This document shows positions 2,146 to 28,996 of a stretch of 58,199 bases of DNA, piece by piece. The notes under the pieces are model-generated. The model was not told the origin of the DNA. It searched no databases and was given only the letters and a program-made list of their open reading frames with translations. How positions within the stretch are numbered: the stretch's first letter is position 1; the number at the start of each line of letters is the position of its first letter. Origin of the DNA: Caldisericum sp. (lineage in GTDB: Bacteria > Caldisericota > Caldisericia > Caldisericales > Caldisericaceae). The stretch lies in contig JAEMPV010000062.1 in assembly GCA_022759145.1 (NCBI GenBank), positions 1 to 58,199 of the forward strand. The letters are read 5' to 3'. A program made the position numbers and the translations under genes.

Positions 2146-2616
2146 CTACCAACGTAAATGAGCATAAGACCTGTTAGCCTCTGCCATTTTGTGCAGATCT
2201 ATCTTTTTCTTATATGCTGCACCTGTTTCATTAGAAGCGTTAATGATCTCGTCTGCTAATTTTTCTTCCATTCTCTTTCCCTTAACACTTCTTGCTGCCT
2301 CAATAATCCACTTTATTGCAAGTTTTTGTCCTCTTTCTTTTTCAATTTCGATTGGAATCTGGTAAGTTGCACCACCAACTCTTCTTGGCTTAACCTCAAC
2401 AAGGGGTCTTACTTTCTCTAAAGCAAGTTCAAAAACTTCAAGAGGGTCTTTGCCTGTCTTTTCTTTTACAATGTCAAATGAAGCATAAACAATTTTCTCA
2501 GCAAGACTCTTCCTGCCGCCCTTCATAACATTGTTAATGAGTTTTGCGACCATTACATTATCGTAAACTGGGTCGCCTTCAATTTCTCTTTTTGGAGCTG
2601 GTCCTCTACGAGGCAT
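2146..2616 (-). CDS. rpsG: 30S ribosomal protein S7
   Basis: This is a 156-residue S7, the primary 16S rRNA-binding protein that organises the head of the small subunit, at the usual length. The N-terminus [16 protein letters not shown] and the segment [15 protein letters not shown] are typical. Its start codon overlaps the stop of rpsL by one base (TAATG), so translation is probably coupled to S12. It sits in the str operon between rpsL and fusA. In E. coli S7 represses its own operon. I did not identify a matching RNA site here. Confidence 0.97.
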
Positions 2617-2999
2617 TACGCACCTCCCTTTTTGGGCTTCTTAGCACCGTACTTGGATCTTCCACGCATTCTTCCTTCAACACCCGCTGCATCAAGTGCG
2701 CCACGAATAATGTGGTATCTTACACCTGGAAGGTCTTTAACCCTTCCACCACGCACCAACACCATAGAGTGCTCTTGAAGATTGTGTCCAATTCCTGGAA
2801 TATAGGCAATAACTTCTTCACCATTTGTAAGCCTGACCTTTGCAATCTTACGCAAGGCCGAATTAGGCTTTTTAGGGGTCATTGTTCTTACTTGAATACA
2901 TACACCCCTTTTCTGTGGACACCCTTGTAAAGCCGGTGTCTTGCTTTTTTCCTTAGTCCTTTCTCTCGGACTTCTTACTAATTGGTTAAAAGTCGGCAT
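2616..2999 (-). CDS. rpsL: 30S ribosomal protein S12
   Basis: S12 sits in the decoding centre of the small subunit. The product is 127 residues. It carries [11 protein letters not shown] and [13 protein letters not shown], the two loops that touch the A site and in which streptomycin-resistance changes occur. Both key lysines are the wild-type residues, so streptomycin sensitivity is expected at this site. It is the first gene of the str operon. A GGAGGAT ribosome binding site precedes the ATG, and a consensus promoter lies about 40-65 bases upstream (3040-3067). rpoC ends just beyond that promoter at 3077. Confidence 0.97.
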
Positions 3000-3039: not shown

Positions 3040-3067
3040 ATTATAGCAAAATTATTTTAATTGTCAA
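3040..3067 (-). promoter_or_regulatory. Promoter of the str operon
   Basis: On the minus strand a perfect -35 TTGACA (3067-3062) and a perfect -10 TATAAT (3045-3040) are separated by 16 bases, which predicts a start near 3033 and a leader of about 33 bases before rpsL. The site lies wholly in the 77-base gap between rpoC and rpsL. Ribosomal and elongation-factor genes can therefore be transcribed independently of rpoBC. Confidence 0.85.
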
Positions 3068-3076
3068 TAATACCAT

Positions 3077-6000
3077 TTATTCTTCAAAATCCATATTTGT
3101 GCCTGCTGGGATTTTCTTACCAACAATAATAGATTCCTTCATTCCACGAAGGAGATCTATCTTTCCCTTAATCGCAGCCTCTGCTAAAACTCTTGGTGTT
3201 TCCTGGAAGGATGCAGCAGACAAGAAGCTATCTGAAGAAAGTGCTGCTTTGGTAATGCCCTGTACTAACAGTTTAAATTTTGCAATTCTCTTTCCTTCAG
3301 CTTTCATTTTCCTATTTTCTCTCAAAACATCTTCTTTGTTAACAACTTCACCTTCGTAGAAGTTGGTATCTCCAGAGTCAACTATCTCAACCTTGTCAAA
3401 CATTCTCTTCAGGATAACTTCAATATGTTTTATGTTAATATCGACGCCTTGAGACTTATAGACCTTTTCAATTTCCTGGAGGAGATACCTTGCAGTAAAG
3501 TTCATACCTTTAATATCGAGAATTTCTCTTGGATCAAGTGGTCCATCACTTAAGATGTCACCAACCCTCACATAATCTCCGGTTTTTACATTGAGTTTCT
3601 TATCACGAGGCGCAGGAATCTTAATCTTTTCTCCCTTTTCTCCTGTTATTGTAATCAACTGCCTCAACTTATCAGAAGTTACTTCAACTTTTCCTTTCAT
3701 AGGAGAAACAATTGCCTTCCCTTTAGGAGCACGAGCAGAGAAAAGTTCTTCTACCCTTGGAAGACCCTGTGTAATATCCTGACTTGCAACACCACCAGTA
3801 TGGAAGGTTCTAAGGGTTAACTGAGTTCCTGGTTCACCAATCGACTCCGCTGCAACAACACCCACTGCCTCTCCAACTTTAACAATGTCTCTATTGGATA
3901 GATCTACGCCGTAGCATTTTGCACAAACACCATGTTCAACATTGCAAGTAATTGGAGATCTAACCTTTACTTTTCTTACACCGAGGCTCTCAATTAATTT
4001 TGCTTTCTCTTTTGTAATGAGTTCGTTCTTTCTAACAATAGGTTCAACGCTTTCATCAAAAACTTCAATTTCTTTTATCTTTGATTTTTCAAGAATTTCA
4101 AGCACACCTTCTGTTATTTTTCTGCCTTTCTCGACAACTAATTCGCCATTATCATATACGGATTCTGCAAGAACGTATCCAATTGCTTTCTTATTAGCCT
4201 TAACTTTCTTTGGGGTAGTAGGAGGATAAATGTTTTCGGCAGCATATCGTCCCCAAATTTGTTCGGCTAAGGTTATAACTGGCTTATCGTAGTTATCACC
4301 TTCGACAATTGGCTGAACATCAATACCATTAACAAAGTCTTCAATAAGGATAGACTTTATTCCAAGTTTGTCCAAAAGGCTTGCTTGTTCTGATGAAATT
4401 GTGTCACCTTTTCGTATAAAAGCCATATTGGTGTTCGGATCAACCACATCTTCGGCTGCAACTTTAAGTATCACTTTTGAAGAAAGAGGCTCAATCAATT
4501 CGTCGCCAACCATTGTTGCCTTGACACGTCTAACGGCACAATCATCTTCTTTTACAATAATACCATGCGCAACATCTACGAGCCTTCTCGTAAGATATCC
4601 AGAGTCAGCCGTCCTCAAAGCAGTGTCAGCCTGTCCTTTTCTTGCACCGTGGGTTGAAAGGAAGTATTCAAGAACAGTAAGACCTTCTCTTAAATTTGAA
4701 AGAATTGGGAATTCGATAATCTTACCTGTTGGACCTGCCATAAGTCCACGAATACCAGCCATCTGCGTAATCTGAGTAGGGCTTCCTCTTGCACCTGATA
4801 TAGCCATCATGTAAACTGGGTCAAAGTTATCGAAATTATTAAAAACAAGTTGCTGAATTCTCTCCGAAGCCTTTCTCCAGATTTCAACTACAGCCTGATA
4901 CCTCTGGTCTTCAGACAGTAAACCTTCTTCGTATTGCTGGTTAATATGCTCAACCTGCTTTTGTGCTTCTTTTATAACTTCGTCTCTTTCTTTAGGAATT
5001 TTTACATCATCCAAACCAATACTAATTCCACTATAAGTTGCAAATTTGAAACCAATATCCTTTAGGTTATCCAAGAGTATATCAGTTTTAACGAGACCAT
5101 ATCTATCGTAAAATTCGGATATGATTTTTTCTAACTGCTTTTTACCAACAACTTCGTTAATGAAAGGATAATCATCATCACCATCAAAAATACCTTCCCT
5201 CAATTTCATATTGAAGATTACTCTTCCAACAGTTGTTTCAAAGACTTCTCCTCTAAAACTAAATCTTATAGTTTCATGAAGTTTCAATAGACCCTTTTCG
5301 TATAGTAGTTCAACAAGATGAGGATCATCATAAATACGCTTGCTCTTTAACTCCTCACCCTTGGAAAGGGTTAGGTAGTAAACACCTATGACCATATCCT
5401 GGACAGGCGTATCGAGAGGACCACCATGCGCAGGAGATAGGATATTATGTGATGAAAGCATAAGCATTTTTGCTTCCATCTGCGATTGCAAAGATAATGG
5501 CAAGTGTATTGCCATCTGGTCACCATCGAAGTCAGCATTGAAAGGAGTACATACAAGTGGAGATATCTGGAGAGCCTTTCCCTCAATCAAAACGGGCTTA
5601 AATGCCTGAATACTCAATCTGTGGAGAGTAGGTGCACGGTTAAGAAGCACAACATAATTCTTTGATAAGTCTTCAACTGCTTTCCAAACCTCTGGTGTTG
5701 GGTTTTCAATGAGTTCTTTTGCCTTCTTCTTGTTGTATCCAAGTTTCGACAATTCATAAGTAACAAATGGCTTAAAAAGTTCAAGTGCCATCTCTTTAGG
5801 AACACCGCACTCATCAATCCTTAACTCAGGACCAACAACTATAACGGCTCTTCCTGAGTAATCAACTCTCTTTCCAAGAAGATTTTCCCTGAATCTACCT
5901 TCTTTTCCTTTGAGAATATCAGTTAGTGATCTAAGAGGCCTTTTATTTGCATTAACAACTGGATATGACTTTCTTCCATTATCAAAGAGGGCGTCAACTG

Positions 6001-6868
6001 CTTCCTGTAACATCCTCTTTTCGTTCTCAAGCATAATGTCAGGTGCGTTAACTTCGTAAAGTTTCTTTAGACGGTTATTTCTATTTATTACCCTTCTGTA
6101 CAGTTCATTGAGGTCGTCAGAAGCATATTTACCACCCTCAAGAGGCACTAAAGGTCTAAGATCTGGTGGTATAACTGGAACCACAGTTAGAACCATATCC
6201 TGAGGCTTTCTGTTATTATTTAGCAAGCCTTCAACAACGCTCAGGAGTCTAACTGCACTACTCTTTTCCTGTGTAGATCCATTCTTCAACTTGTTCAGTG
6301 CATCTTCTCTTAATTTATTTAAATCTACTTTTTCAAGAAGTTCCTTGATTGCCTCTCCACCCTTCTTTGCAACAAAATCAAGATTTTCTTCGAATCTATA
6401 CATATAGTATTCTTCCTCGGAGAGGACTTGTTTAAATCTCAACTTTGTCTTCTTTGGGTCGATTACAACATATGCCACAAAGTAAATAATTTTCTCTACA
6501 TCCTGCGACTTCATATCCAGCAGGAGAGCAATATAATTGATATTGTTCTTAAAATACCAGATATGTGCAACAGGAGTTGCAAGTTGTATGTGCCCGAAAC
6601 GCTCCCTTCTTACTGAGGATGGAAGAATTTCAACTCCGCAGCTTGGACACTTCAATCCTTCGTATTGCTTGCCTTTCAACTTTCCACAATGGCATTGGTA
6701 CGAGTGAACTGGTCCAAAAATTTTCTCACAGAACAAACCATCTGGCTCTGGTAAATAATTTCTATAACTGTAAGTATCACCTCTTTTTACTTCCCCATGT
6801 GACCAGGAAAGTATTTCTTCTTCTGAGGCTAACAAAATCTTTAATGCTTTTATATCCGCTTTATTCAA
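3077..6868 (-). CDS. rpoC: RNA polymerase beta' subunit
   Basis: This is the largest catalytic subunit of RNA polymerase, about 1263 residues. Near the N-terminus is the zinc site [19 protein letters not shown]. The active-site motif NADFDGDQM, whose three Asp hold the catalytic magnesium, is near residue 443. The second zinc site is split: one Cys near residue 776 (DDCAVRR) and [11 protein letters not shown] near 975. That spacing is far wider than the roughly 75 residues in E. coli, because about 120 extra residues carrying repeated beta-beta' modules are inserted between them. A GTG at 6877 lies inside the AGGGGGTG ribosome binding site (6882-6875), so the TTG at 6868, six bases after that site, is the likelier start. 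The next gene upstream is not rpoB but an EF-G-like GTPase, 16 bases away. Confidence 0.96.
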
Positions 6869-6884
6869 AAGGTCCACCCCCTAT

Positions 6885-8909
6885 TTACTCTTCGGATTCT
6901 TTCTTATTGTGTTCCGATTCTTGTATTATTTTTTCAGCAATCTTTGGAGGAACAGGTTCATAGTGAGAATGCTCCATCTTAAACTCACCCGTTCCTTGAG
7001 TTATCGAGTTGAGATCGTTTGCATAGTTCAACATTTCAGCGAGAGGAACATATGCTTCAATAATTTGCTTTCCATTTTCGCTTCTCATTCCAATAACTCT
7101 TCCTCTCTTTGCATTGAGGTCACCTATCACATCACCCATGTACTGTTCATCAACTATTACAACAACTTTCTCAATTGGTTCAAGGAGAATTGAATTTCCC
7201 TGTTCTAAAGCCTTTTTGAGAGCCATCGACCCTGCAATCTTAAATGCAAGTTCCGAAGAATCAACAGGGTGATAAGAACCATCTACAACTGCAACTCCAA
7301 TATCTGTAACTGGATACCCTGCAAGAATTCCTTCTTCCATTGCCTCTTTAACACCCTTTTCTACAGCAGGGATGTACTGCTTTGGTATAGCACCACCGAA
7401 AATTCTACTTTCAAAACTGTATTCCTTGCCTCTTTCGAGAGGTTCAACCTCTAAGAAGCAATGCCCGTACTGACCGTGTCCTCCTGTTTGTTTCTTGTAC
7501 TTTCCTTCTACTTTTACCTTTGTTGTAATAGTTTCACGATATGGAACCTTAGGAACGGTAAGTTCAATGTTAACACCATAACGTCCACTTAACTTTTCCA
7601 TAATTACCGATAGATGAGTCTCTCCAATACCAGAAATGAGTTGTTCTTTTGTTTCCAAATTTTTGGATATTTTTACTGTCGGGTCTTCTTCGGTTATCTT
7701 GGAAAGTCCGATACTCATTCTATCCTCGTCAGTTTTTGTTTTGGGCCTCATTGCCCTTGTGAGCATTGGCTCAGGAAATTCTATTTTCGGAAACTCTATT
7801 GGGTTGTCTTTATCGCAAAGGGTATCATTTGTTTGAGTCACTGTAAGCTTTGTAATAACGGCAATGTCTCCTGCTATCACCTCATCAACAGGTTCCTGGT
7901 TTGAACCAATCATAAAAACAATCTGTCCGGTCTTTTCAAGAGCACCTTTAGATGAGTTGTAAACAGTCGAGTTCGACTTTAATACACCTGAGTACACTTT
8001 AGTAAAAGATAGCTTTCCAACATATGGGTCAGAAAGAGTTTTAAATACAAATGCTGACAAAAATTCATCAACTGCAACTCTTCTTTTCTCTTCTTCTTTG
8101 GTATTGGGGTTGATACCAATAACTTCTCCTAATTCTTCAGGGCTCATCATCACATCAACTGCAAAATTGAGAAGTTCGTCTAAACCAACAAGACTTGTTG
8201 CAGAGCCAAAAAGAATAGGGAACAAATTTCCTTTTATGTATGCATTTTTTAAACCTTTGTTAACTTCTTCCTGAGTAAGTTCCTCTCCACCAAGATACTT
8301 CTCGAGGAGTGCATCATCGGACTCTGCTGCAATTTCCATTAGTTCATGCTTAAAATTATCAAGATTTTGATTTTCAAATACTGATGAGACTTTAGTAAAT
8401 TTTCCTCCTTCGAAAACAGGGTAGTTTAAAGGAATCGCCTTAGGGCCAAAAAAGTCTCTTACAACACTAAGGATATGTTCGACATCAACACCTTCGACAT
8501 CAATCTTATTTATGAAAATTGCACGAGGTTTGTTTTCTTTTTCAAGAAACTTCCAATACTTTTTAGTCTGAATTTCAATACCGCTTGTTGCGTTTACAAG
8601 CATCACGGCATTTTCAGCAGCTCTTATACCACTTAACACCTCGCCTACAAAATCAGCATATCCTGGTGTGTCAAGGAAATTAACTTTAACGCCGTTATGT
8701 TCAACAGGAACAATTGAAAGGCTTATACTGAATTTTCTATTCTTTTCTTCGGGTTGATAATCAGAGACGGTGTTTCCATCCTCAACCCTTCCCATTCTTG
8801 AGATTACCTTTTTCTTAAAAAGAATTGCTTCTAACAAAGTAGTTTTTCCTGCATTCCCATGCGAAACAAGAACTACATTTCTAATCTTGTTAGTTGCTTG
8901 AGCCTTCAT
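6885..8909 (-). CDS. EF-G-like translational GTPase (EF-G paralogue)
   Basis: This is a 674-residue five-domain EF-G homologue that differs at catalytic positions. The P-loop is SHGNAGKT (16-23), switch I reads RKFSI (58-62) in place of RGITI, and G3 is DTPGY (80-84), so the catalytic His of canonical EF-G is a Tyr. NKID at 134-137 is intact. These traits match the family often called EF-G2 or EF-G-like, of uncertain function. Members lacking the His have been reported to bind GTP with little hydrolysis, so a role other than ordinary translocation is likely. The gene starts with ATG after GGAGGAG and overlaps the 3' end of rpoB by 20 bases. rpoC follows 16 bases after its stop. Being sandwiched between rpoB and rpoC is very unusual and implies equimolar expression with RNA polymerase. 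Confidence 0.9.
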   Translation of the reverse strand: MKAQATNKIRNVVLVSHGNAGKTTLLEAILFKKKVISRMGRVEDGNTVSDYQPEEKNRKFSISLSIVPVEHNGVKVNFLDTPGYADFVGEVLSGIRAAENAVMLVNATSGIEIQTKKYWKFLEKENKPRAIFINKIDVEGVDVEHILSVVRDFFGPKAIPLNYPVFEGGKFTKVSSVFENQNLDNFKHELMEIAAESDDALLEKYLGGEELTQEEVNKGLKNAYIKGNLFPILFGSATSLVGLDELLNFAVDVMMSPEELGEVIGINPNTKEEEKRRVAVDEFLSAFVFKTLSDPYVGKLSFTKVYSGVLKSNSTVYNSSKGALEKTGQIVFMIGSNQEPVDEVIAGDIAVITKLTVTQTNDTLCDKDNPIEFPKIEFPEPMLTRAMRPKTKTDEDRMSIGLSKITEEDPTVKISKNLETKEQLISGIGETHLSVIMEKLSGRYGVNIELTVPKVPYRETITTKVKVEGKYKKQTGGHGQYGHCFLEVEPLERGKEYSFESRIFGGAIPKQYIPAVEKGVKEAMEEGILAGYPVTDIGVAVVDGSYHPVDSSELAFKIAGSMALKKALEQGNSILLEPIEKVVVIVDEQYMGDVIGDLNAKRGRVIGMRSENGKQIIEAYVPLAEMLNYANDLNSITQGTGEFKMEHSHYEPVPPKIAEKIIQESEHNKKESEE

Positions 8910-11900
8910 CTAACTCCTCCTTCACCATTTTTCCAAGATTTATTTTTGTTGTTATTTTAGGTAAGAAAGGTTCTTTGACCTTCTTTTCTTCTTTCTTCTC
9001 AGGCAGTACCTTCAAGTCTATAGCAAGACCTCTTAATGTTCTTTGCAAAACATTGAATGATTCAGGAATACCGGTTTCAAATATTGTTACGCCCTTTGAT
9101 ATTGCTTCATATGCACGTTTCCTTCCCTCAAGGTCGTCAGACTTAATAGTGAGCATTTCGTGTAGAAGATTTGCAGCACCATATGCTTCAAGAGCCCAAA
9201 CTTCCATCTCACCGAGTCTTTGGCCACCAAATTGTGCCTTACCTCCAACTGGCTGTTGTGTAATAAGCGTGTATTTGCCAACCGCTCTTGCGTGTATCTT
9301 ATCTTCTGCAAGGTGATTGAGTTTCAAGAAGTACGCTTCGCCAACAGTTACTTTATATTCAAAAGGTTTTCCTGTTCGTCCATCATACACAGTCATTTGT
9401 CCAGACTCATCAAGATTTGCCTTCTTTAGAAGAGACCTTACATCTTTTTCTGATGCGCCAATAAAGGAAGGTGTTACAACTCTCACATTCAGATTTCTTG
9501 CAGCAATTCCAAGATTTGCTTCTAATATCTGCCCTATATTCATTCTTGAAGGAACTCCAAGTGGACTTACGATAATATCAACGGTAGTTCCATCTTCAAG
9601 ATAAGGAAGGTCTTCTTCCGGGACAATTTTACTTACAACACCTTTATTTCCATGACGACCAGCGAGTTTATCACCAACGATTATTTTCCTCTTCTTTGCA
9701 ACAAATATCTTAATTACCTTCAGGGCATTCTTAGTGAGCTCGTAACCCTCTTCCCTTGAGAAAACCTGGACATCGATAACTACACCCCCTTCTCCAGGAG
9801 GGACTACAAAAGAACTATTCTTAAGATTACTGTTTCTGTTACTCCACAAACTTCTCCAAATTTTCGCTTCGTTAGATTCTTCTTCTTCTGGGAACGGGGT
9901 AACTTTTCCTACAAGAACATCTCCTGGTTTTACCTTTGAACCAACCTTTACGATACCTTTCTCGTCGAGGAAACGAAGGGCTTCTTTTCTTACATCCCTT
10001 ATATCAGGGGTAAGTTCTTCTGGACCTTGCTCAGTTTCATGAACTTCAACGGTATATTCCTTAATATGAACAGAAGTTAATCTATCTTCGCTTACTAATT
10101 TTCTGCTTATAACAATAGCATCCTGATAATTGTACCCATACCATGAAAGATATGCGATAAGAACATTAATGCCAAGAGCCATTTCCCCATTTTTCGTTGC
10201 ATAACCATCTGCAAGAGGCATACCCTTTTTAACAATATCGCCTTTCTTTACAATCGGCCTTTCGTTTCTGCAGGTGTCCTGATTTGTCCTTTCGAATTTT
10301 CTTAATCGATAAACAACTTCCTCTCTTACCCTGACTTTATTAACGCCTGCCTCTGCAAGTTTTCTTAACTTATCTAAGGTAATTAGCTCGCCTGCTTTTA
10401 TAATAACTTCGTCTTTTTCGTTTGTGTAATCCTTTGCAACAACCCTGTCAAGGAGGTCCTCGTTAATCTTGCCAAGATTGAATGTTTCGACTTCCTGTGG
10501 TGAATAAACAAGTAAGTCTGTAACACCCTTATCATAGAGTTCGTTTAGAAGTTCCTCTGTTATTTGAGGCTCGAATCTTAGAGTTCTCTTCGTATTTGTT
10601 AATGTCCCAAAGAGGCTTTTTCCAATTATATTTTTGCCCAACGCAGTTAACTCAAGCTTAAAGACAGGCTTTGTAACTATATTACCATCCTCTTCAACCT
10701 TGATTTCTTTAACACCGCTTTGCTCATAAAGCCTGTTCAACTTTGTATCCGATATTTTTTGCCCTTCTTCAATAAGAGGTTTACCTTTTTTACTTACAAT
10801 AGTTTCCTTTGCAACAAGACCAATAAGGTCATCGTTTCTCTCTTTATCAAAGCAATTTGTTATAGCAAACTTCTGGATTTTATCTGATTCTATAATAGAA
10901 ATTTGTTCAATACCGTGTGTTATAAGTTTATCGATAACCTGTGGAGTTATCTTTTCACCAACAAGTTTGTAATAATCTTCAATCTCAGGCTTTATATCTA
11001 AGAGCACTATCTCTTTCTGCTTTGCTCTATTGAGTAAACTTTGCTTAAGGTCTGATGCTTCTCTATAAACAGAAACATCAACTGATTTTGCATCATTAGG
11101 AACAATATGTATCTCGCTTCCATCAACATAAGAAACAATTCCGTCGTGTTGAGAGAGAGGAAGGTCGAGGTCATCTATTGCAATTTTCCCCTCGTAACCT
11201 GTAGAAACCCTTGGAAGTTCTGGATCTAAAAGCGGGACAGCCTGTCGCTGCATGTTGCAACCCATTAACGCCCTGTTTGCATCGTCGTGTTCAAGGAAAG
11301 GAATAAGAGACGCAGATGGGCTAATAACCTGTTGTGGAGAAACATCCATAAGTTGAACCGCATCTTTTGAAACAAGTTGAGGAAGAATTTCACCAGATTC
11401 AGTTCTCTTTCTTGCAATAACAAGTTCTGCAGTTATTCTTCCTTTGTCATCAACGGGGGTATTAGCCTGGGCAATAATATATTTTTCTTCTTCGTCTGCA
11501 GTTAGATAAACAATTTCGTCAGTAACAACACCATCTTTTACAATCCTATAAGGAGTTGTTATAAAACCATATTCATTAACGCTTGCAAACATCGTAGGAG
11601 AGTTAATAAGCCCTATGTTCTGACCTTCAGGAGTTTCAATAGGACAAATTCGACCATAGTGCGAGGAGTGAACATCTCTTACTTCGATACCTGCTCTTTT
11701 TCTGTGCAATCCTCCTGCACCAAGCGATGTAAGCCTTCTCTTGTGAGTTAACGAGGCAAGAGGGTTTGTTTCCTCCATAAACTGGGATAACTGGCTTACA
11801 CCAAAGAACTGTCTTAGCTGCCCTGTAATTGCCTTGTTGCTAAAGATGGAGGGAATTGTAATTTCCTCAGGCTTTTTGATTGCAATTGCCTCTTTAGCAC

Positions 11901-13086
11901 TTCTCTGGACCTTTAATGCACCTTTCTCAAATTCCTCTGCAATGAGTTCGCCAACTGTTCTTACACGCCTGTTTGCAAGGCTATCTATATCATCTTCTTT
12001 TTCTATTCGCTCTCTAACTTTAATCAAGTGAGAGATAATATCTGTAAAATCATCTTTAGTAAGGATGTGGTCGTCTCTTTCGACATTGAACTTCTTATTA
12101 ATTTTGTACCTTGAAACCGGATAATACTCATTTCTTCTCGGATCCATCAAAATGTTATGGACAAGTTCGTCTGCAGCTTCTGGTGTGACCCTTTCTTTTG
12201 GATGGAAAATCTTGTATATTTCAATTTTTGCTTCTTCAGAATTATTTGTTTTATCTTTTTTAAGAGTTTGTTCAACCCAATAATCGTAACCTTCAACTTT
12301 TAAAGTGGCACGAAGAATATTAGCCTCACGCATTTTTTCAAAAGACTCTTCTGTAAGGATTGTTCCACTCTTTAAGATAACTTTACCTTCTGAATTTTTA
12401 ATATCCTCAATGAGTTTCTTTCCGAGTACTACATCATATGAAAAAGGAGATGTGGTCAACACATCAACACTCATCGTCTGGTAGAACTTTTCAAGAATTT
12501 CCTCGTTATTCTTGAAACCAATTGCCTTTAATACTACCGTAACTGGAAGTTTTTTCATCCCCTTCTTTAAACGGATGTACATAACATTATCTTTTCCAAC
12601 TTCCATTTCCATCCAGTTTCCTCTATCAGGGATAATGGTTACTATATAATTAGTAAAACCACTTTCAACATCTTTTTCGGTCTGGAAATAAACGCCAGGA
12701 GACCTTATCAATTGTTGAACTACAACCCTCTTTTTCCCGTTAATGATAAAAGTGCCATCGGGAAGCATTTTCGGAATATCCGCAAGTAAAGCTTCCTGTT
12801 CCTTTATCTCACCAGTGTTTTTGTAAATTAGCCTGAATTTCCCCTTGATTGTTGCTTCATATGTAGTTCCAACTCTAACGCAATATTCAGGCGTTTTTAC
12901 AGGATCAACAACCGAATAAGATACAAATTCAACTCTTATATTTTTCGTATCTATTGGGAATATTCTCTTTAGAATTTCCCCAATCCCCTCATTTAAAAAT
13001 TTTTCGTAGGACGAGATTTGAACATTTAACAAATCAGGCAAAGGTATACTCAATTTCGTTTTTCTAAGGTCTAAAATTTTATCCAT
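8890..13086 (-). CDS. rpoB: RNA polymerase beta subunit
   Basis: This is the second catalytic subunit of RNA polymerase, about 1398 residues and so longer than most. The rifampicin-pocket region lies near residues 425-465. It reads FMEETNPL and [13 protein letters not shown], with Glu and Thr where E. coli has D516 and S531. Between IHIVPN (about 662) and [14 protein letters not shown] (about 925) there is an insertion of roughly 260 residues built of repeated modules that resemble those in RpoC. The C-terminus has the conserved [20 protein letters not shown] segment. Two adjacent ATGs exist at 13089 and 13086. The second has the better spacing to AAGGAGG (four bases). The gene is not preceded by rplKAJL as in many bacteria but by moaC, and it has its own promoter at 13118-13145. 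Confidence 0.97.
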   Translation of the reverse strand: [1398 protein letters not shown]

Positions 13087-13117: not shown

Positions 13118-13145
13118 ATTATACAAAAATTTTAAGATTAGTCAA
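13118..13145 (-). promoter_or_regulatory. Promoter of rpoB-GTPase-rpoC
   Basis: On the minus strand TTGACT (13145-13140) and a perfect TATAAT (13123-13118) are 16 bases apart, just after the moaC stop codon. The start would be near 13111, giving a leader of about 25 bases with an AAGGAGG site. No hairpin terminator is visible between moaC and this promoter, so read-through from the long upstream operon is possible. Confidence 0.8.
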
Positions 13146-17774: not shown

Positions 17775-18395
17775 TTAGTGCCCTCGTATAATATCCTTCA
17801 TTTTCAAAAGTCTTGCGATATTTTCTCTATCCATCTCCTCCAATTTGCTTTCTATGTATTTAACGGTTTCCTCAAGGTTTGGAATCAAGACATATTCAAG
17901 AGCATTTACTCTTCTTCTAACCTTTGCGACTTCAAGAGCAATAGAATAGAGTTCTTGTTCTAAGGATGCAAGTTCAACCATTCTTTCGATAAGTTTAAGT
18001 ATCTCAAGGAAAGTATAGTCAAGCATAACAGGCGTAAGAGAATATGGATAGGCAATAGGAGAACCTTCAACTTTTGTAGAAAATGCAGGATATTTTACAT
18101 TCATCACCTGAACCAATTTTGAGGAAATATCCAGATGAAAGTTTCCGCCCTCAAGAAGAGAATCAAGGACATCTTCAGGAATATCCTGCGTTGAAATTTC
18201 AAACTTTTTAAGTGCAAGTACAAACTCTTCATCAAAACTCTTTCTCAAATCGATATATCTTTTAGAAACATCGAGGAAATTCTTCATCAAGCCTTCAAGT
18301 TTATCCTTTAAAAGTTTGTGTCCTCGCCTTGCAAGCTGGAGCCTCTCTTTTAACCGGAGAAGCTCCATTCTTGTTGGATTTACATTAAGAAGCAT
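17775..18395 (-). CDS. atpD: V-type ATPase subunit D (central rotor stalk)
   Basis: The 206-residue protein is almost entirely helical and begins [16 protein letters not shown], the signature start of V/A-type subunit D. D forms the long coiled-coil rotor that turns inside the A3B3 head. The C-terminal region [21 protein letters not shown] is also conserved. It overlaps atpB by 11 bases. It is the last ATPase subunit gene of the cluster, as in Enterococcus ntpD. Confidence 0.95.
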
Positions 18396-19788
18396 TTTCC
18401 TTTACCTCTTGCTTCAGGTATTTAGATAGATATTTCTCAATAAATTGAGGTTTTACTCTCTTCAATTCTTCAACTGGTAACATTGAAAGAAGTTTCCAGC
18501 CAATCTCGAGAGTCTCCTCAATCGACCTATTTTCATATTCGCCCTGTCTTACAAAATTTCTTTCGAATTCATCCGCAAACTTTACATGCAATAGGTCTGA
18601 TGGAGTCAACGCACTTTCACCCAAAACTGTCAAAAGTTCCCTTGCTTCCCTTCCTCTTGCATAACTTGCAAAAAGCTGGTTCATAATACTTGCATGATCT
18701 TCTCTTGTTTTGTTAGGACCAATTCCCTTATCTTTTAATCTTGACAAACTTGGAAGGACATCAATCGGTGGGTATATTCCCTGCTGGTACAAACTTCTGC
18801 TAAGGAAAATCTGCCCTTCTGTAATGTAACCCGTGAGGTCAGGGATTGGGTGAGTTTTATCATCCTCAGGCATTGTTAAAACAGGGATTTGTGTAATAGA
18901 ACCTTTCTTCCCTTTAATTCTTCCTGCTCTTTCATATATCGTTGCAAGGTCGGTATACATATATCCTGGGTATCCACGTCTTCCTGGGACCTCTTTTCTT
19001 GCAGCGGATATTTCACGAAGTGCTTCGCAGTAGTTAGTCATATCGGTCATAATAACAAGAACATGCATGCCAAGTTCAAAAGCAAGATATTCTGCTGCTG
19101 TAAGCCCAAAACGAGGTGTTGCTATCCTTTCAATAACAGGGTCATTTCCAAGGTTTATAAACATAACTGAACGCTCTAATGCACCAGATTCCCTAAAACT
19201 CTGGATAAAGAAATTCGCTTCTTCAAAGTTTATACCCATTGCAACAAAAACTACTGCAAATTTTTCCTCTTTACCCAATACCTTCGCCTGTCTTGCAATT
19301 TGCGCTGCAAGTTGTGCGTGAGGCAAACCTGATCCAGAGAAAATAGGAAGTTTCTGTCCCCTTACAAGCGTATTCAAACCGTCGATTGCAGATACACCAG
19401 TCTGGATAAATTCAGAAGGATAATCTCTTGCATAAGGGTTGATAGGGCTTCCGTTAATATCGAGTTTTTTCTCAGGAATTATTGGAGGTGCACCATCTAT
19501 TGGCTTTCCAGAACCATCAAAAATTCTTCCCAAAATATCAGGAGAAACACCCAACTCAACACCATGCCCTAAAAATTTTACCTTAACTTCCCCGAGGCTT
19601 AAGCCGGATGTTCCTTCAAAAACCTGAATAAGAGCCATATTTCCATTAACTTCAAGGACTTGGCCTCGTTTAATGGTCCCATCTTGTGTTTTAATCTCTA
19701 CGATTTCGTTATATGTTGCTTTTTCTACATTATCTACAACGAGTAATGGTCCTGCAATCTCCTTAGCAGTTGTGTACTCTTTAGGCAT
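18385..19788 (-). CDS. atpB: V-type ATPase subunit B (regulatory head subunit)
   Basis: This non-catalytic head subunit of the V1 sector is 467 residues. It carries [18 protein letters not shown] where catalytic subunits have a P-loop, which identifies it as B and not A. The blocks VARGQ-like [10 protein letters not shown] and [20 protein letters not shown] are typical. A GTG at 19800 lies upstream, but the ATG at 19788 follows a GAGGTGG site and overlaps the atpA stop by eight bases, so it is preferred. The product alternates with subunit A in the hexameric head. Confidence 0.96.
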
Positions 19789-21556
19789 ATTCCACCTCAC
19801 TCAGAAGCGATTCAAAAGATTGTTTTATTTTTTCTTCAATCTCATCAAATTTCTCAAGGGCCTTTTCAGATATGAACTTAGCTCTTGAAATATCAACTCT
19901 TACGGGAAGAGAAATAATTTTCTCTAATTCTACACCTTTCTTAAGTGCGTCTTCAGCAAGTTCAGCAAAAGTAAATATCAACTTTATCATTCTGTACTGC
20001 TTCTTAAGCGATGTGTATGTATCTTCCGGGTCAAATGCATCCTGCTGAAGGAAGTCTTCCCTTATGGAACGCGCAATTTCAAGTGTGAGTCTGTCTTGAG
20101 GCGAAAGTGCATCAATTCCAACAAGCCTAACCATTTCCTGAAGTTCTGCTTCTTTTCTCAGTATAGAAAGAGCCCTTGCTCTGTAATCGTTCCATCCAGG
20201 ACCTGCATTTTTTTCATAAAATGCTTTTAACTCGTCTGCATACATAGAATAACTCCTAAGCCAGTGAATTGCAGGGAAATGTCTTGCATACGCTAAAGAT
20301 GCATCAAGCGACCAGAAAACTCTTACTGTTCTTAATGTTGCCTGGACTACCGGGTCTGAAAGATCCCCACCAGGAGGGGATACAGCACCAATAACACTCA
20401 AACTCGAAACTTTTTCCTCATTACCAAGTATGTAAACTTTTCCTGCTCTTTCATAGAAGGAAGATATACGGGATGCAAGATATGCAGGATAGCCTTCTTC
20501 TCCTGGCATTTCCTCAAGACGACCCGACATTTCTCTCATCGCTTCAGCCCAACGGGATGTTGAGTCTGCCATAAGGGCGACATTATAACCCATATCTCTA
20601 TAGTACTCTGCGATGGTTATTCCTGTAAATACCGAAGCCTCACGAGCGGCAACAGGCATATTTGATGTGTTTGCAACAAGAACAGTTCTTTCCATTAATG
20701 GACGTCCGCTCTTAGGGTCTTTAAGTTCCGGGAATTCAATGAGAACATCGGTCATCTCATTTCCGCGTTCTCCGCAACCAATGAAAACAATTACATCTGC
20801 GTCTGCCCATTTGGACAACTGGTGTTGGACAACGGTCTTTCCGCTTCCAAAAGGACCAGGAACACAAGCAGTCCCACCTTTTGCAATAGGAAAGAACATA
20901 TCAATCGACCTCTGTCCTGTGACAAGTGGCTCATCAGGTGGAATACGATTCTTTGAGGGTCTTGCAAATCTTACCGGCCACTTATGATACATCTTCAACT
21001 CAATTTCCTTATCTCCATCAGAAAGTACTGCAATAACAGTTTCAACATTATAATCGCCTTCGGAAACAATACTTTTTACTTTTCCTTTAACATTTGGTGG
21101 AACAAGAATCTTGTGTTTTATAAGCGGTGTTTCCTGGACTTCACCAAGTACACTTCCAGGCGTCAATTCATCAGACTCTTTTACTTTCGGCACGAAGTGC
21201 CACAGTTTCTCTCTGTTTAATGGTGCAGCAAAAATCCCTCTCTGAACGAACTCTCCAAATTTTGCCATAAGTTCGTCAAGAGGTCTTTGAACACCATCAT
21301 AGATGGAGCCAATAAGCCCAGGTCCAAGTTCAACGCTCAGAGGCATTCCTGTAGAAAATACAGGCTCACCGGGACCAATACCTGAAGTATCCTCGTAAAC
21401 CTGTATTGAGGACAAATTACCTCTTACTTCTATTATTTCTCCAAAAAGCCTCTTATCCCCAACATATACCATTTCATACATTTTTGCATTGGGGATATCG
21501 CTTGCAACCACAAGAGGCCCTGCAACTTTTACAATCTTACCTACTCTTTCCTCCAT
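19781..21556 (-). CDS. atpA: V-type ATPase subunit A (catalytic head subunit)
   Basis: This catalytic subunit is 591 residues, the usual length. It has the P-loop GPFGSGKTV near residue 237 and the extended non-homologous region characteristic of V/A-type A subunits. [14 protein letters not shown] and [19 protein letters not shown] are diagnostic. Two ATGs exist at 21562 and 21556. The second is seven bases after GGAG and is preferred. It overlaps atpB at its end. In bacteria such enzymes either make ATP or pump ions. The K subunit here suggests sodium coupling. Confidence 0.97.
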
Positions 21557-21567
21557 ATCCATTCTCC

Positions 21568-21885
21568 TTAAGCGTTTTTACCTAAAATATTTATACCTAC
21601 TGCCTTCTCGACAACTTCTCCTATCATTTTAACAGTCTCTCCGCTTGCTTCAATTGTTGGAAGCATCATAATAGCAGGCATAGGTACAGTTTTCTTACTT
21701 ATAATTTCCTTTACCACATCTGCATAGGTTTCTTCTGTTAGAATTATTGAATAAGTGCTAACTTTAATAAGTTCTTTTAACTTTGAAGCAACTTCTGCAC
21801 TTGTTTTTGTAGCATACATCTCAATACCAAAACTTTTTAGCAGTATTCCAAGTCTTTTATTTCCGACAAACGCTACTTTATTCAT
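21568..21885 (-). CDS. atpF: V-type ATPase subunit F (central stalk)
   Basis: A small 105-residue protein, with MNKVAFVGNKRLGILLKSFGI at the start and a Rossmann-like alternation typical of subunit F (NtpG in Enterococcus). It binds subunit D in the rotor. A TTG at 21891 is in frame, but ATG at 21885 has GGAG seven bases upstream. It overlaps the end of atpC by eight bases, and atpA follows within 12 bases. Confidence 0.9.
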   Translation of the reverse strand: MNKVAFVGNKRLGILLKSFGIEMYATKTSAEVASKLKELIKVSTYSIILTEETYADVVKEIISKKTVPMPAIMMLPTIEASGETVKMIGEVVEKAVGINILGKNA

Positions 21886-22828
21886 ACGCAAACTCCAGTT
21901 CAGGTATTTCCTTCGGATTTACTCCGTAATAAAGAGCATAAGTAAGTTTCTCTAACAAACTTGTTTCAAAATTCAACCTCAAAAGATAAACAAAGATAGG
22001 CTCAATTCCCTCGTTAAGATATTTGCCTTTTGCGAATGCTTCTTTTAGCGTATTATAAGTAAGTATCTTGTATGACTCTTCAAGATGCTCTTCGAAATAC
22101 AACCTCTTAGATTCATCAAGGAATCTTTCAAAATCAGAATAATTTCCGAACTTAGACAAAAAATCCTTCAAATCAAGGTGAGACTCTATGTAGGACAAAA
22201 CCTCGTTGAAGTTTTCCTGCGTAATGAAATTATTTTTTACAAAGTTGTAATTCCTCATAAGTGTTACTAAAATCGTATTTTTAACAAATGATTCGTAAAA
22301 ATCAATTATAAATGGACTTTGGGTTTTCTTTGAAGACCTCAAAAGGAAATTAAGGTAATGGACATCAACTACAAGAGGCTTTATATAGGTTGGATAATCC
22401 TTCTTAAGTTCTTCAAAGCATCCTCTTATCTCCTCAGGAAGTAATTCATCACCTTTCAAGAGAGAATTTACAAATTCATCTTCGGTGTACTCAGAAATAT
22501 CACCCAAAACAATTTTCTTTAATAGAAGAAAATATTTACTTGAGTTAAAAAAGACATTTATAAAGTCCCCAAGTCCAAACTTCTCAAACTCCTCAAATTC
22601 TTTTTCTTTTCTTCTTTGAATTCCGTTTTTAACAGAATTGAAACTTCTCTCTGCGATGAAATCCTTGTAGGGATAGTTTTGCAAAAAATCAACAAATTCA
22701 TCAAAATTCTTCTCAACAAGTTCTCTGTAAAGATTTTCGCTTATTAAGTTTGTCTCAATTACTTTTATCCTACCGCAAAGGAAATCGTAATAACCCTTTG
22801 GCTCTATTTTAAAAGAAAATGTAACCAT
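21878..22828 (-). CDS. atpC: V-type ATPase subunit C (rotor-to-ring adaptor)
   Basis: A 316-residue, mostly helical protein without membrane segments. It matches the V/A-type C (yeast d-like) subunit that sits as a funnel between the central stalk and the membrane ring. The N-terminal YYDFLCGRIKVIE resembles the first of its three repeats. Sequence conservation in this family is weak, and the position between atpE and atpF, as in the Enterococcus ntp operon, gives much of the support. It directly abuts atpE with no gap. Confidence 0.88.
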   Translation of the reverse strand: MVTFSFKIEPKGYYDFLCGRIKVIETNLISENLYRELVEKNFDEFVDFLQNYPYKDFIAERSFNSVKNGIQRRKEKEFEEFEKFGLGDFINVFFNSSKYFLLLKKIVLGDISEYTEDEFVNSLLKGDELLPEEIRGCFEELKKDYPTYIKPLVVDVHYLNFLLRSSKKTQSPFIIDFYESFVKNTILVTLMRNYNFVKNNFITQENFNEVLSYIESHLDLKDFLSKFGNYSDFERFLDESKRLYFEEHLEESYKILTYNTLKEAFAKGKYLNEGIEPIFVYLLRLNFETSLLEKLTYALYYGVNPKEIPELEFAYE

Positions 22829-23407
22829 TTATCCAAAAATCTCCTTTGCAATTTCAATTTCTTTTTCTTCCCTAAATGCATTAATTATCGAATCAAGAGA
22901 GTCATCAACTTCATAACTTTCAGTTTTAATAATAACACCACCATCTATATCAATGGGAGAATCTGCAACTTTTACGTTCTTTAATTTGAGTTCGTGCACA
23001 ACAAATTTTTCAATTTCTTTTCTGAACTTCTTAAGGTCGCTCTCATTAAGGTATATCGTTGCGTAATCCACCAAATCGTTCTTTAAGGCATTAAAAAGTA
23101 ACTTTAAGTAAGACTTTTCGTCCTTCAATAGTTCGCCCTTTAATTTTTCGAAAAACTCTTCAAGGATTTTCTTTTTTCTTAAAAGTTTTTCTTTCTCAAT
23201 TTTAGAAATCTCTATAGTTTTTTCTCGTGCTATTTCCTTGTCAATTTCCTTCTTAGTCTTATTTAGTTTTATTTCATATTCTTCGTTCAGAGTCTTTTCG
23301 AACTCTTTTAACTCGTTCTCTAATTCAATTTTTGCTGCCTCAATCATCTTATCTGCCTTCTTTTTTGCAGAGTCGATTATGAGGTCTCTAACTTTTTCAA
23401 TACCCAT
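22829..23407 (-). CDS. atpE: V-type ATPase subunit E (peripheral stalk)
   Basis: A 192-residue protein. The N-terminal ~110 residues are a highly charged coiled coil rich in Lys and Glu, and the C-terminal globular part includes DIDGGVIIKTESYEVDDSLDSI-type residues (the DGG motif is typical of E). It pairs with the small coiled-coil subunit encoded at 25891-26223 to form the stator. atpK lies six bases upstream. Confidence 0.9.
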   Translation of the reverse strand: MGIEKVRDLIIDSAKKKADKMIEAAKIELENELKEFEKTLNEEYEIKLNKTKKEIDKEIAREKTIEISKIEKEKLLRKKKILEEFFEKLKGELLKDEKSYLKLLFNALKNDLVDYATIYLNESDLKKFRKEIEKFVVHELKLKNVKVADSPIDIDGGVIIKTESYEVDDSLDSIINAFREEKEIEIAKEIFG

Positions 23408-23413
23408 ATCCGA

Positions 23414-23899
23414 TTAGAATACTGCCTTTGAAACCCAAAGTGAAAGCAAAACTCCAGAAAGAAGTCCAAGAATAGCGTATGTTTCAACAAGTGCAGGAAG
23501 TAATATTGCACGGCCACTTTCTTCAGGTCTCTTTGCAGTTAAGTCAATCGCACTTATTGCTGAATGAGCCTGGTCAAGTGCTGTCTTAAATTCAACAAAT
23601 CCAATAAGAATTCCTACAAGTAACATTACAATGCCTTGTGCAAGGCTTGCCTTTGGAGTTCCTGCGATAAAGCCAAAGAACTGAAGCATAAGGAACATTA
23701 CAACAAATGCATAGAACCCCTGAGTTCCTGGAAGTGCCATAGCGACAAGCATTTTACCAAAAAGTTCTGGCTTTTCTGAAAGAGCTCCACCTGCATGTGC
23801 AGTTGTTCTTCTAATTCCAATACTGGAGCCAATTGCTCCCATTACAGCAGTAATAGCAGCACTAAATGCAACTAACATTACACCGTTAATTCCGTTCAT
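23414..23899 (-). CDS. atpK: V-type ATPase subunit K (membrane rotor ring, duplicated hairpin)
   Basis: This is a 161-residue, four-helix membrane protein made of two fused c-type hairpins. Only the second hairpin has the ion-binding carboxylate (E139 in LPALVET). The first has LPGTQ at 56-60. Residues L56, T59, Q60, Q110 and E139 match the five sodium ligands of Enterococcus hirae NtpK (L61, T64, Q65, Q110, E139), so sodium coupling is predicted. An upstream ATG at 23917 lies over the GGAGG site, so ATG 23899 (MNGINGVML), one base after the atpI stop, is chosen. Confidence 0.95.
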   Translation of the reverse strand: MNGINGVMLVAFSAAITAVMGAIGSSIGIRRTTAHAGGALSEKPELFGKMLVAMALPGTQGFYAFVVMFLMLQFFGFIAGTPKASLAQGIVMLLVGILIGFVEFKTALDQAHSAISAIDLTAKRPEESGRAILLPALVETYAILGLLSGVLLSLWVSKAVF

Positions 23900-23900
23900 T

Positions 23901-25910
23901 TTACCTAACCTCCTCATGTTTTTTGTTTAATCTTATATTTTTAAATTCAAACCCAAGGGGCTTGAATTCATAACCACCAAGGTCATAGAACCTACCAAAA
24001 AATTCAAGAAAATTCAAACGCATCGAGTGTATGAAGGCACCCAAGATGTTCATAAATAGGGCAAACGAATGTAGCGCAAGGAGTACCAAAATTGTAACTA
24101 AAACTCCAACAGGTCCAAACATTTCTCCAATTACTTTTGCCATAAGATTAAAGGACGAAGCAAGAATACCAGAACTTAAACCAAGTGCAAACAATCTTAA
24201 ATAGGAAAGGGAATCGCCAAGAAAACCTGATATACCATAAGAACTTCTTATGCCATACAGGTTTACAAGGGCTGCAATTGGCTTGAATAGAGGGGTTCTT
24301 ATGGACATCCAGCCTCCAATAAGAATAAGTATTAACCCTCCTATAAGAAGTATATTATCTATTAACTTGAGAGTTGGGTTTGTCCCAACGAGAACAAGCA
24401 GCACAAGTCCCGGTAAGAAAAGAAGCCACCCAAGACCGTTAAAAATTGCATCTAAGAAACTTCTATTTTTTATTTTAACTATTATACTAATGAGTATCCC
24501 GATCATTTGTGATATAAAGCCAATAATAAGGGAAAGAACCATAAATTTAACTGAACCGTCAGGTGAAGCAGGATCAATTATCATCAATTTTGACATAACT
24601 TTTGTAAGAATGAAGTTGGGGAAATATGTGGGAAGAAGGTTGCCAAAAAAGGAATTTGTAAAAATCCCTACCACAACAGACATCAAACCCCCATAGAAAA
24701 GTATCATAAAGAATTTCCATGCTCCGATGTTTTTCCTATACTTATTTGCATATATAAGACCAAAAAGCGCTAAGATAAGTCCATATCCTGCATCTCCAAG
24801 CGCAAAACCAAAGAAAGTTGTAAACAATATAGCAACAACCATCGTTGGATCTATATTGCTATAAGAAGGTAAACCAAATAACCTTATAAGAAATTCAAAA
24901 GGCCTAAATATAATAGAATTTCTAAGGCTCACAGGAATAAGGTCGTTAGGTCCAGTTTCAAGTTCAAGCATTGTAAAATTAAGTTTATCTGCAATACTCT
25001 CTAATTCATTAAATTGATTTTCTTTAACATATCCCCTAACAACAAGGGCTGTTTTTCCTTCAAGGAAATGAGATATTGACTTTTCTTTAAGTGAAAGCGA
25101 ACGATAATAATCTTCTAAAATTAGAAGGTTTCTCTTTTCTTTAAACAATTCGGTTACCTTTGAAGTAATTATTCCACGCTCTTCCTCAAGCTTTCTAAAT
25201 GATTTTTCGATGCTTTCTGCTTCCTCTTCAAAGTACCCTGAAAAATCCTGTGGTGGAGTTAAGATTTCAATAGAGTAGTCCTTGATAAGTTCCAAAACTA
25301 TGTCTCTCTTTTCATTTAAATAAAGAACAAATATCATACTTTTGTTTTTGTCAGACCTAAAAACATACACAAATAGGTTTTCTGCTCTTTCATCGCTATT
25401 AAATTTTTCGAGTTCTTTAGTTTTTATTGTGCCTATAAAAGAAGAGGTTCTTTTTGTCCCTTTGAGAATTGAAAACTGGAACGGGAAACCTGAAAAAACC
25501 ATTAAATTCTTTTTAGCATCAAGGAGTTTTGCACTCTCTCCCTCAATTTCATGAAATCTATTTTTTAGCGAAATAATCTCTTTATAAAATTTATCAAGAT
25601 TGAAATTATTTATAACACTGTTAAATTCATCAATATCGACATCAAAATCTTGAGGTAAGAATCCCTGGATGAAACCCCGTTTATCAAGGTTGAACTCTTT
25701 GAATACAGAAAGAATTGAAGAAATCTTATAAAGTTCGTCTTCAAAAGTTTTCTCCGGAATTGATGCCTTGAAATTTGAGTAATTTGAAAGAATTTCTTCG
25801 GAAACGCTTTCAATATGGAATGTATTTAATTCAAAAAGGGTATCTAAAAGCGTCTTTTTCTTATCTACACTTCCAATGAGTGCAACTTTTTTAACCTTCT
25901 CTATTGCCAT
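23901..25910 (-). CDS. atpI: V-type ATPase subunit I (membrane stator, a-type)
   Basis: A 669-residue protein with a soluble N-terminal half of about 350 residues, which includes a coiled coil, and a C-terminal membrane half with about seven helices. GFALGDAGYGLILALFG and the late SYLRLFALGLSSGI segment, with the essential Arg that faces the rotor carboxylate, are family signatures. It forms the ion half-channels. It overlaps the upstream stalk subunit by 20 bases and is followed by atpK. Confidence 0.95.
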   Translation of the reverse strand: MAIEKVKKVALIGSVDKKKTLLDTLFELNTFHIESVSEEILSNYSNFKASIPEKTFEDELYKISSILSVFKEFNLDKRGFIQGFLPQDFDVDIDEFNSVINNFNLDKFYKEIISLKNRFHEIEGESAKLLDAKKNLMVFSGFPFQFSILKGTKRTSSFIGTIKTKELEKFNSDERAENLFVYVFRSDKNKSMIFVLYLNEKRDIVLELIKDYSIEILTPPQDFSGYFEEEAESIEKSFRKLEEERGIITSKVTELFKEKRNLLILEDYYRSLSLKEKSISHFLEGKTALVVRGYVKENQFNELESIADKLNFTMLELETGPNDLIPVSLRNSIIFRPFEFLIRLFGLPSYSNIDPTMVVAILFTTFFGFALGDAGYGLILALFGLIYANKYRKNIGAWKFFMILFYGGLMSVVVGIFTNSFFGNLLPTYFPNFILTKVMSKLMIIDPASPDGSVKFMVLSLIIGFISQMIGILISIIVKIKNRSFLDAIFNGLGWLLFLPGLVLLVLVGTNPTLKLIDNILLIGGLILILIGGWMSIRTPLFKPIAALVNLYGIRSSYGISGFLGDSLSYLRLFALGLSSGILASSFNLMAKVIGEMFGPVGVLVTILVLLALHSFALFMNILGAFIHSMRLNFLEFFGRFYDLGGYEFKPLGFEFKNIRLNKKHEEVR

Positions 25911-27701: not shown

Positions 27702-27779
27702 TGGTCGGGATGGTGGGATTCGAACCCACGACCTCTTGGTCCCGAACCAAGCGCTCTAACCAAACTGGGCCACATCCCG
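27702..27779 (-). tRNA. tRNA-Pro, anticodon CGG
   Basis: This is a 78-base cloverleaf. The acceptor CGGGATG pairs with CATCCCG, and the 3' ACCA is encoded. The anticodon stem CTTGG/CCAAG encloses the loop TTCGGGA, so the anticodon is CGG, reading CCG. The T arm is GTGGGTTCGAATCCCAC. C1-G72 is the usual proline identity pair. It is only three bases from the tRNA-Pro(GGG) upstream and shares its promoter. Confidence 0.95.
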
Positions 27780-27782
27780 TAG

Positions 27783-27860: not shown

Positions 27861-27885
27861 ACAACCTAACTTATTGACCCGATAA

Positions 27886-27913: not shown

Positions 27914-27921
27914 CACTTTAA

Positions 27922-28263: not shown

Positions 28264-28267
28264 AAAA

Positions 28268-28981: not shown

Positions 28982-28996
28982 AATTTCCTCCAAAAA

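Follow-up and report, generated by a model that had tools for sequence, protein, structure and literature searches.

The rpoB-rpoC locus and its genes

We analysed a stretch of 58,199 nucleotides from Caldisericum sp. (assembly GCA_022759145.1, contig JAEMPV010000062.1), here called the window, in which a gene for a second elongation factor G (EF-G) lies between rpoB and rpoC, the genes of the two large subunits of RNA polymerase. The window makes up the first 58 kb of a contig of 90 kb, in a genome of 1.62 Mb. Judged by the identity of the EF-G paralogue, the closest named relatives are Caldisericum metagenome-assembled genomes (72, 85 and 93%), and Caldisericum exile is placed by NCBI in the Caldisericota, class Caldisericia. 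Lists of open reading frames, combined with Pfam and NCBIfam matches, give the minus-strand order moaA, moaC, rpoB, EF-G paralogue, rpoC, rpsL, rpsG and canonical fusA, where moaA, moaC, rpsL and rpsG are putative names given from the sequence. The features of the locus are as follows:

13118..13145, minus strand: promoter-like site of rpoB, TTGACT-16-TATAAT (11/12 consensus matches; a consensus match only)
8890..13086 (start alternatively 13089), minus strand: rpoB, RNA polymerase beta subunit (Pfam RNA_pol_Rpb2 domains)
8916..8922, minus strand: Shine-Dalgarno sequence AAGGAGG for the EF-G paralogue, within the 3' end of rpoB (sequence)
6885..8909, minus strand: EFG II (EF-G2) paralogue, 674 amino acids (aa) (Pfam GTP_EFTU, EF-G_D2, EFG_III, EFG_IV and EFG_C; NCBIfam NF009381, 881 bits; tree, motifs and EF-G fold)
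6874..6881, minus strand: Shine-Dalgarno-like sequence GGGGGTGG upstream of rpoC (sequence)
3077..6868, minus strand: rpoC, RNA polymerase beta' subunit, TTG start (Pfam RNA_pol_Rpb1 domains; start and spacing)
3040..3067, minus strand: promoter-like site of rpsL, TTGACA-16-TATAAT, dividing the rpoB triad from the unit with canonical EF-G (12/12 consensus matches)
2616..2999, minus strand: rpsL (S12), a putative name from sequence, with the same place in the compared loci L003-L005
2146..2616, minus strand: rpsG (S7), a putative name from sequence, with the same place in L003-L005
54..2138, minus strand: fusA, canonical EF-G (EFG I) (TIGR00484, 969 bits; in the EFG I clade, whose 19/19 rows have RGITI and DTPGH)

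All coordinates in the preliminary description of this locus hold: the paralogue of 674 residues is encoded between rpoB and rpoC, its gene overlaps rpoB by 20 bases and stops 16 bases before rpoC, and a canonical EF-G is encoded 4.7 kb away. The 16-base gap is counted to the TTG at 6868, which we took as the start of rpoC, while the first start given by the open reading frame lister is a GTG at 6877. A strong Shine-Dalgarno-like site precedes this TTG, and TTG is the chosen rpoC start in most of the compared loci.

Conservation of the three-gene order in Caldisericia

To place the window among its relatives we used a phylum sample of 54 genomes that includes its own, with classes and families (f1 to f7) given as kinship codes, and compared the positions of matches to the paralogue, to the N-terminal domain of RpoC and to the C-terminal domain of RpoB; here and outside the phylum, these positions are among the matches listed, from which weaker ones may be missing. 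The complete triad rpoB-EFG II-rpoC, whose middle gene is assigned to its subfamily below, is present in 39 of the 49 genomes of the window's class, across families f1 to f6. Six more genomes (G007, G024, G025, G030, G033 and G046) have the triad cut by a contig end and agree in the part that remains, and four (G004, G031, G034 and G048) were not judgeable. None of the 49 class genomes (45 judgeable, six families) has a contradicting gene order. A misassembly or a quirk of a single strain is ruled out by these 39 genomes. One of them, G009, is assembled as one contig of 1,558,103 bases and carries the same order, so the triad does not stem from faulty assembly. The only other family of the phylum, f7, belongs to another class, and there rpoB and rpoC are adjacent in 5/5 genomes, with 119 to 254 bases between the domain ends, and the EFG II relative is located away from them in 5/5. 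In three of the f7 paralogue contexts (L082, L083 and L085), EF-G itself is the sole match to eight query proteins from the window. Conservation of the order in relatives, which the preliminary description had named as support for a functional link, is therefore a property of the class.

The genes around the triad change from family to family. The f1 triad is preceded by moaC and followed by rpsL-rpsG-fusA, and f3 keeps the upstream genes of f1 except moaA and moaC, with fusA downstream. A sodium:solute symporter gene lies upstream in f5, where the str genes (rpsL, rpsG and fusA) still lie downstream; in f5 and f6, rpoC is followed by a gene of 124-128 aa (rpsL by position), rpsG and fusA. Family f2 has rplJ and rplL upstream and a DUF554 gene downstream, and the genes on either side in f4 encode large proteins that match none of the window's, one of them with glucodextranase B-like and immunoglobulin-like domains. 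Neither flank in f2 and f4 thus resembles that of f1, and the triad is intact in both. The f1 layout, with rpoB and rpoC followed by rpsL, rpsG and fusA, is that of the bacterial rpoBC and str operons, from which Caldisericia differ in having an additional EF-G gene between rpoB and rpoC and in that the str genes of f2 and f4 are not beside rpoC. The length of RpoB also differs while the triad persists, from about 1,400 aa in f1 (window 8890-13086) to 1,139-1,141 aa in f2 (L073:2271-5696).

Spacing was compared in loci having all three triad genes, incomplete loci being excluded. Among the loci listed, the EFG II start lies -26 to +22 bases from the rpoB stop, apart from L023, an outlier at 299 bases because its rpoB is broken, and the rpoC start lies 9 to 51 bases from the EFG II stop. 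Every EFG II start among them has GGAGG, GGGGG or GAGG within 22 bases upstream.

rpoB and rpoC outside the phylum

A first sample outside the phylum consisted of 94 genomes from 94 families. Of these, 70 have their rpoB and rpoC matches 38 to 883 bases apart, 11 have a single match that runs across both genes, and the other 13 were not judged (four without a query match and nine without an rpoB row among the matches listed). The second sample comprised 80 of the 108 further genomes with a listed rpoC place, some from families shared with the first sample; here the gap is 50 to 335 bases in 78 genomes, with one contig break and one true separation. In total, rpoB and rpoC are close in 159 of 174 genomes, split in one and not judgeable in 14, and their linkage is by itself near universal. 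Since the gaps in these 159 genomes are too small, there is no room in them for a 2-kb gene. The true separation, a rare event for this pair, occurs in G179 (L088-L089, contig C1, 2063000-2098500; a single contig of 3.5 Mb), where rpoB and rpoC lie 29.6 kb apart on the same strand, and tblastn found no EF-G between them. A search for EF-G-like genes between rpoB and rpoC in other genomes, as the preliminary description had proposed, therefore yielded no triad among the 174 genomes (14 not judgeable). Relatives on viral contigs were also looked for, and none were found. In some genomes of this broad comparison (G258:C96, G269:C25 and G117:C20), the rpoB and rpoC domains stand in a single open frame of 2,465-2,632 aa, an arrangement that looks like a fusion.

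The paralogue as a member of EFG II

On sequence criteria, the paralogue belongs to the EFG II (EF-G2) subfamily and looks like an ordinary member of it. Two trees, of 70 and 68 rows, give the EFG I clade (19 rows) a support of 100 and place the window paralogue outside it, which answers the proposal to build a tree of the paralogue. The assignment of rows to EFG II means a place outside the EFG I clade. The deeper branching of EFG II is weakly supported. The 24 EFG II rows of the class form one side of a branch with a support of 62 only, and the EFG II rows of f7 do not join this group.

The preliminary description had pointed to the switch I and G3 motifs as departures from canonical EF-G. 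Both departures are present, with RKFSI at residues 58-62, DTPGY at residues 80-84 and RGITI absent, but they are shared by EFG II at large. Histidine follows DxPG in G3 in 19/19 EFG I rows and in 0/51 EFG II rows (tyrosine in 36/51), and RGITI is found in 19/19 EFG I rows. The fourth residue of G2 is serine in 24/24 class rows, 4/4 rows of the other class and 19/23 other EFG II rows, the remaining 4 having threonine. Because these motifs belong to EFG II and not to the locus, they are no marks of a special factor, and the G2 and G3 departures are ruled out as a sign of one that serves RNA polymerase. Binding of GTP and of the ribosome would be expected of an EFG II, and the G1 and G4 motifs are present.

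The diagnostic positions published for EFG II by Margus, Remm and Tenson (2011; PMC3150367, tables 1 and 2) agree in 11 of 13 cases, as read by hand from an alignment to Thermus thermophilus EF-G in the paper's bracketed numbering: L25, S61, T291, G335, K354, D198, L246, K472, K473, E517 and G607 match, and S16 (glycine expected) and I232 (valine expected) do not. As that paper describes for the subfamily, the paralogue has five EF-G domains, a replaced RGITI and serine at the fourth position of G2. An EFG I accompanies it, as is usual for EFG II (fusA, 54-2138), and the paralogue itself lacks the EFG I characters, with no RGITI or DTPGH and a gene outside the str operon. What differs is the location: the Caldisericia gene lies between rpoB and rpoC, whereas the sections of the paper on which we draw mention no conserved gene neighbourhood for EFG II, and the word 'rpoB' is not found in its main text.

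Family models gave mixed results. The paralogue scores 642.9 bits with NF009377 (EF-G2 equivalog), below the cut-off of 890, and 881 bits with NF009381 (EF-G subfamily, cut-off 583), which is not discriminating because the canonical fusA passes too (803 bits). With the EF-G equivalogs NF009891, NF009379 and TIGR00484 (cut-offs 597, 513 and 659.4), the paralogue scores 640, 513.4 and 643, well above the first cut-off, just above the second and below the third, and fusA scores 584, 522 and 969. The two models that the paralogue passes here bear the plain name 'elongation factor G'. Automatic family names hence do not settle the subfamily, and NCBI would call both proteins 'elongation factor G'.

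An AlphaFold model of the paralogue (mean predicted local distance difference test score 89, 19 aligned sequences) matches EF-G structures over the full length, with Z scores of 50.3 for 9rtu (ribosome-bound EF-G, the best match), 43.6 for 1wdt, 43.2 for 8dmf and 42.2 for 9k0z. The modelled structure by itself does not favour EF-G2 over EF-G. The match to T. thermophilus EF-G-2 (PDB 1WDT) extends over 636 residues with a root-mean-square deviation of 5.1, and its aligned G3, DAPGY, likewise lacks the histidine, although identity in the structural alignment is 40%. The same absence is seen in Mycobacterium smegmatis EF-G2 (9k0z, DTPGY) and Bacteroides thetaiotaomicron EF-G2 (8dmf, DCPGS), second EF-Gs that were solved on ribosomes (9k0z on the 70S ribosome) according to their entry titles. 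A chain labelled TetQ in PDB 7uvp has the sequence of 8dmf, titled B. thetaiotaomicron EF-G2. EFG II proteins of the class have 673-722 aa, compared with 664-701 in other EFG II, and no extra domain.

A predicted three-gene operon

Scanning 12 kb for promoter-like sites placed the two best upstream of rpoB (11/12) and of rpsL (12/12), in a total of 29 sites against a mean of 29.7 in shuffled sequence. In a scan of 150 bases upstream of the starts in f1 genomes, sites of 11-12/12 lie upstream of both rpoB and rpsL in 6/6 genomes, the window included. Among the same six genomes, a promoter-like match upstream of EFG II occurs only in L005 (10/12, overlapping the start), and matches upstream of rpoC occur in L003 (9/12) and L005 (10/12). 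Because the promoter-like sites lie at rpoB and rpsL, we predict one tricistronic unit that is separate from the str genes with the canonical EF-G, and expression of EFG II would most simply be tied to that of RNA polymerase. Production of the paralogue together with RNA polymerase, as proposed in the preliminary description, is in this way predicted from the promoter-like sites, the gene overlap and the Shine-Dalgarno sites.

Selection and the search for class-specific positions

Identity was compared in eight genomes of the class, with f2 and f4 not included. Within f1 (6 pairs) it is 79.5% for EFG II, 79.6% for fusA and 77.2% for rpoB, and between families (22 pairs) it is 47.8% for EFG II, 45.9% for rpoB, 54.0% for rpoC and 56.9% for fusA. 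At both levels the identity of EFG II follows that of rpoB. In the comparison of the window with G009, EFG II has 260 codons with synonymous differences only and 59 with amino-acid changes, out of 674; the corresponding counts are 594 and 85 for rpoB, 545 and 80 for rpoC, and 281 and 37 for fusA. By these counts, EFG II evolves somewhat faster than its neighbours. Judging from sequence comparison, the gene is in use and under purifying selection.

We then looked for positions that set the Caldisericia proteins apart from other EFG II. Conservation in at least 22 of the 24 class EFG II rows holds for 142 columns, of which only one, E468 in domain IV, is rare in the 27 other EFG II rows. With one row per family, 2/135 columns are of this kind, while 200 sets of six outgroup EFG II drawn at random average 0.5 and reach at most 4. 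The same test gives 53/209 columns for EFG I versus EFG II, so a change of function is within its reach; for EFG I of the class versus other EFG I it gives 13/239 (7 rows versus 12). Subclades do have columns of their own, 17 for f4-f6 and 24 for f1 and f3 together. No class-wide protein signature of a new RNA polymerase partner was found in the 24 class rows versus the 27 others. A class-specific interface on EFG II is thus unsupported, at 1/142 columns, while a clade-specific surface may still exist in view of the subclade columns.

Other features of the window

Elsewhere in the window, positions 17775-25910 hold genes of a V/A-type ATP synthase (two subunits of the alpha/beta family, subunit D and an I-like subunit), and positions 27702-29071 hold a class A RNase P RNA, with two tRNA-Pro genes on one side and a tRNA-Met gene on the other.

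Interpretation

We consider it probable that the Caldisericia protein is a standard EFG II that acts on ribosomes and whose supply is tied to RNA polymerase through the rpoB-EFG II-rpoC operon. This reading starts from what is observed, namely the gene order, its conservation throughout the class, the subfamily and purifying selection. Early in the class, an EFG II gene would have arrived between rpoB and rpoC and become the middle gene of the operon; its source may be a native gene that moved or a transferred one, both being compatible with the data. One transcript would run from the promoter upstream of rpoB. Ribosomes coming from the preceding gene would begin translation of EFG II, and in most members that of rpoC, at a Shine-Dalgarno site belonging to the gene itself. 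The amount of EFG II made per RNA polymerase would then be roughly constant, and independent of the canonical EF-G with its own promoter before rpsL. The protein would be a second translocase that works on ribosomes, with GTP hydrolysis that is probably altered, as is proposed for other EFG II, and not on RNA polymerase.

This ribosomal role is suggested by analogy, EFG II proteins being ribosomal factors so far as their action is known. Ribosome-bound structures exist, by their titles, for second EF-Gs of this kind (8dmf and 9k0z), and Thermus EF-G-2 is described as hydrolysing GTP and supporting poly(Phe) synthesis (PMC3150367, PMC3832671), although the accounts in these two papers differ on its intrinsic GTPase activity. 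In Bacteroides, according to PMC6989115, EF-G2 rises while EF-G falls on carbon limitation; fusA2 there is under a strongly regulated promoter of its own, with a 238-fold induction when carbon is limiting, which is the opposite of a tie to rpoBC.

Several points weigh against our reading. The operon and the fixed ratio are predictions, and a fixed proportion as the thing kept by selection is a proposal that may or may not be right. At least one member of f6 (G047) has no clear Shine-Dalgarno site before the chosen rpoC start. The function of EFG II is described as poorly known, and M. smegmatis EF-G2 as having no ribosome-dependent GTPase activity (PMC3832671, PMC3150367). Lastly, a gene once trapped between rpoB and rpoC would persist without being useful there: as these two genes hardly ever part, conservation of position alone cannot separate a useful arrangement from a frozen one.

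That last point opens a serious competitor, to which we give a somewhat less than even chance: the triad could be a frozen accident, in which a single EFG II insertion in the ancestor of the class was kept since rpoB and rpoC rarely separate, and the position only supplies a usable promoter. The near-universal linkage of rpoB and rpoC speaks for it, as do the lack of a class-wide signature (the one rare column in 142), the location of EFG II elsewhere in the phylum's other class (L082, L083 and L085) and the single branch side taken by the 24 class rows, which at a support of 62 is compatible with one event. Against it, none of the 45 judgeable genomes, which span six families, has lost the gene, moved it or split it off, not even those of f2 and f4 with a change on both flanks, although such persistence would also be expected if a useful gene were caught inside an essential operon.

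It is unlikely that the two EF-Gs divide their labour such that EFG I serves translocation and the paralogue, together with the ribosome recycling factor, takes spent ribosomes apart in the manner of the second Borrelia EF-G. Paralogous EF-Gs that share out their work are documented in Borrelia and mitochondria (PMC3832671, PMC3150367), but those cases concern spdEFG and mtEFG proteins, not EFG II, and the paralogue has the EFG II-type basic loop I (from residue 470) in the domain IV loop that, as described in PMC3150367, is placed at the decoding centre in translocation.

A role in coupling, in which the paralogue would bind to RNA polymerase, or work for the ribosome trailing it, and so link translocation to transcription, appears very unlikely. 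The class-wide gene order with both large subunits of RNA polymerase would fit, and the structural matches include 8y5r, by its title a transcription-translation coupling complex of Escherichia coli with EF-G, so that an EF-G is able to act in such a complex. However, the single EF-G of E. coli is an EFG I (PMC3150367), and Caldisericia EFG II has neither a conserved class-specific surface change nor an extra domain within its 673-722 aa (664-701 in other EFG II). The ribosome-side partner of RNA polymerase that the preliminary description had put forward thus finds no positive evidence beyond gene order, with 1/142 columns class-specific, and a physical link of EFG II to RNA polymerase is not supported. 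The strongest form of the idea, a dedicated partner of transcribing RNA polymerase that is made in fixed ratio to beta and beta' and powers the translocation steps of the first ribosome in complexes that couple transcription and translation, we likewise regard as very unlikely.

The Caldisericia triad is a known protein subfamily in what is apparently an undescribed operon, as a literature search limited to open-licence papers found no report of the order rpoB-EFG II-rpoC. If an RNA polymerase partner were after all the right reading, the triad would be a chromosomally encoded link between the transcription and translation machines. The adjacency of rpoB and rpoC is among the most stable gene pairs of bacteria, and here is a class-wide exception to it with a translation factor inside. 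The triad also provides a clean shared character for the class. EFG II is widespread and poorly understood, and Caldisericia offer a natural case in which to ask what purpose it serves, and whether its amount follows RNA polymerase rather than the ribosomal proteins.

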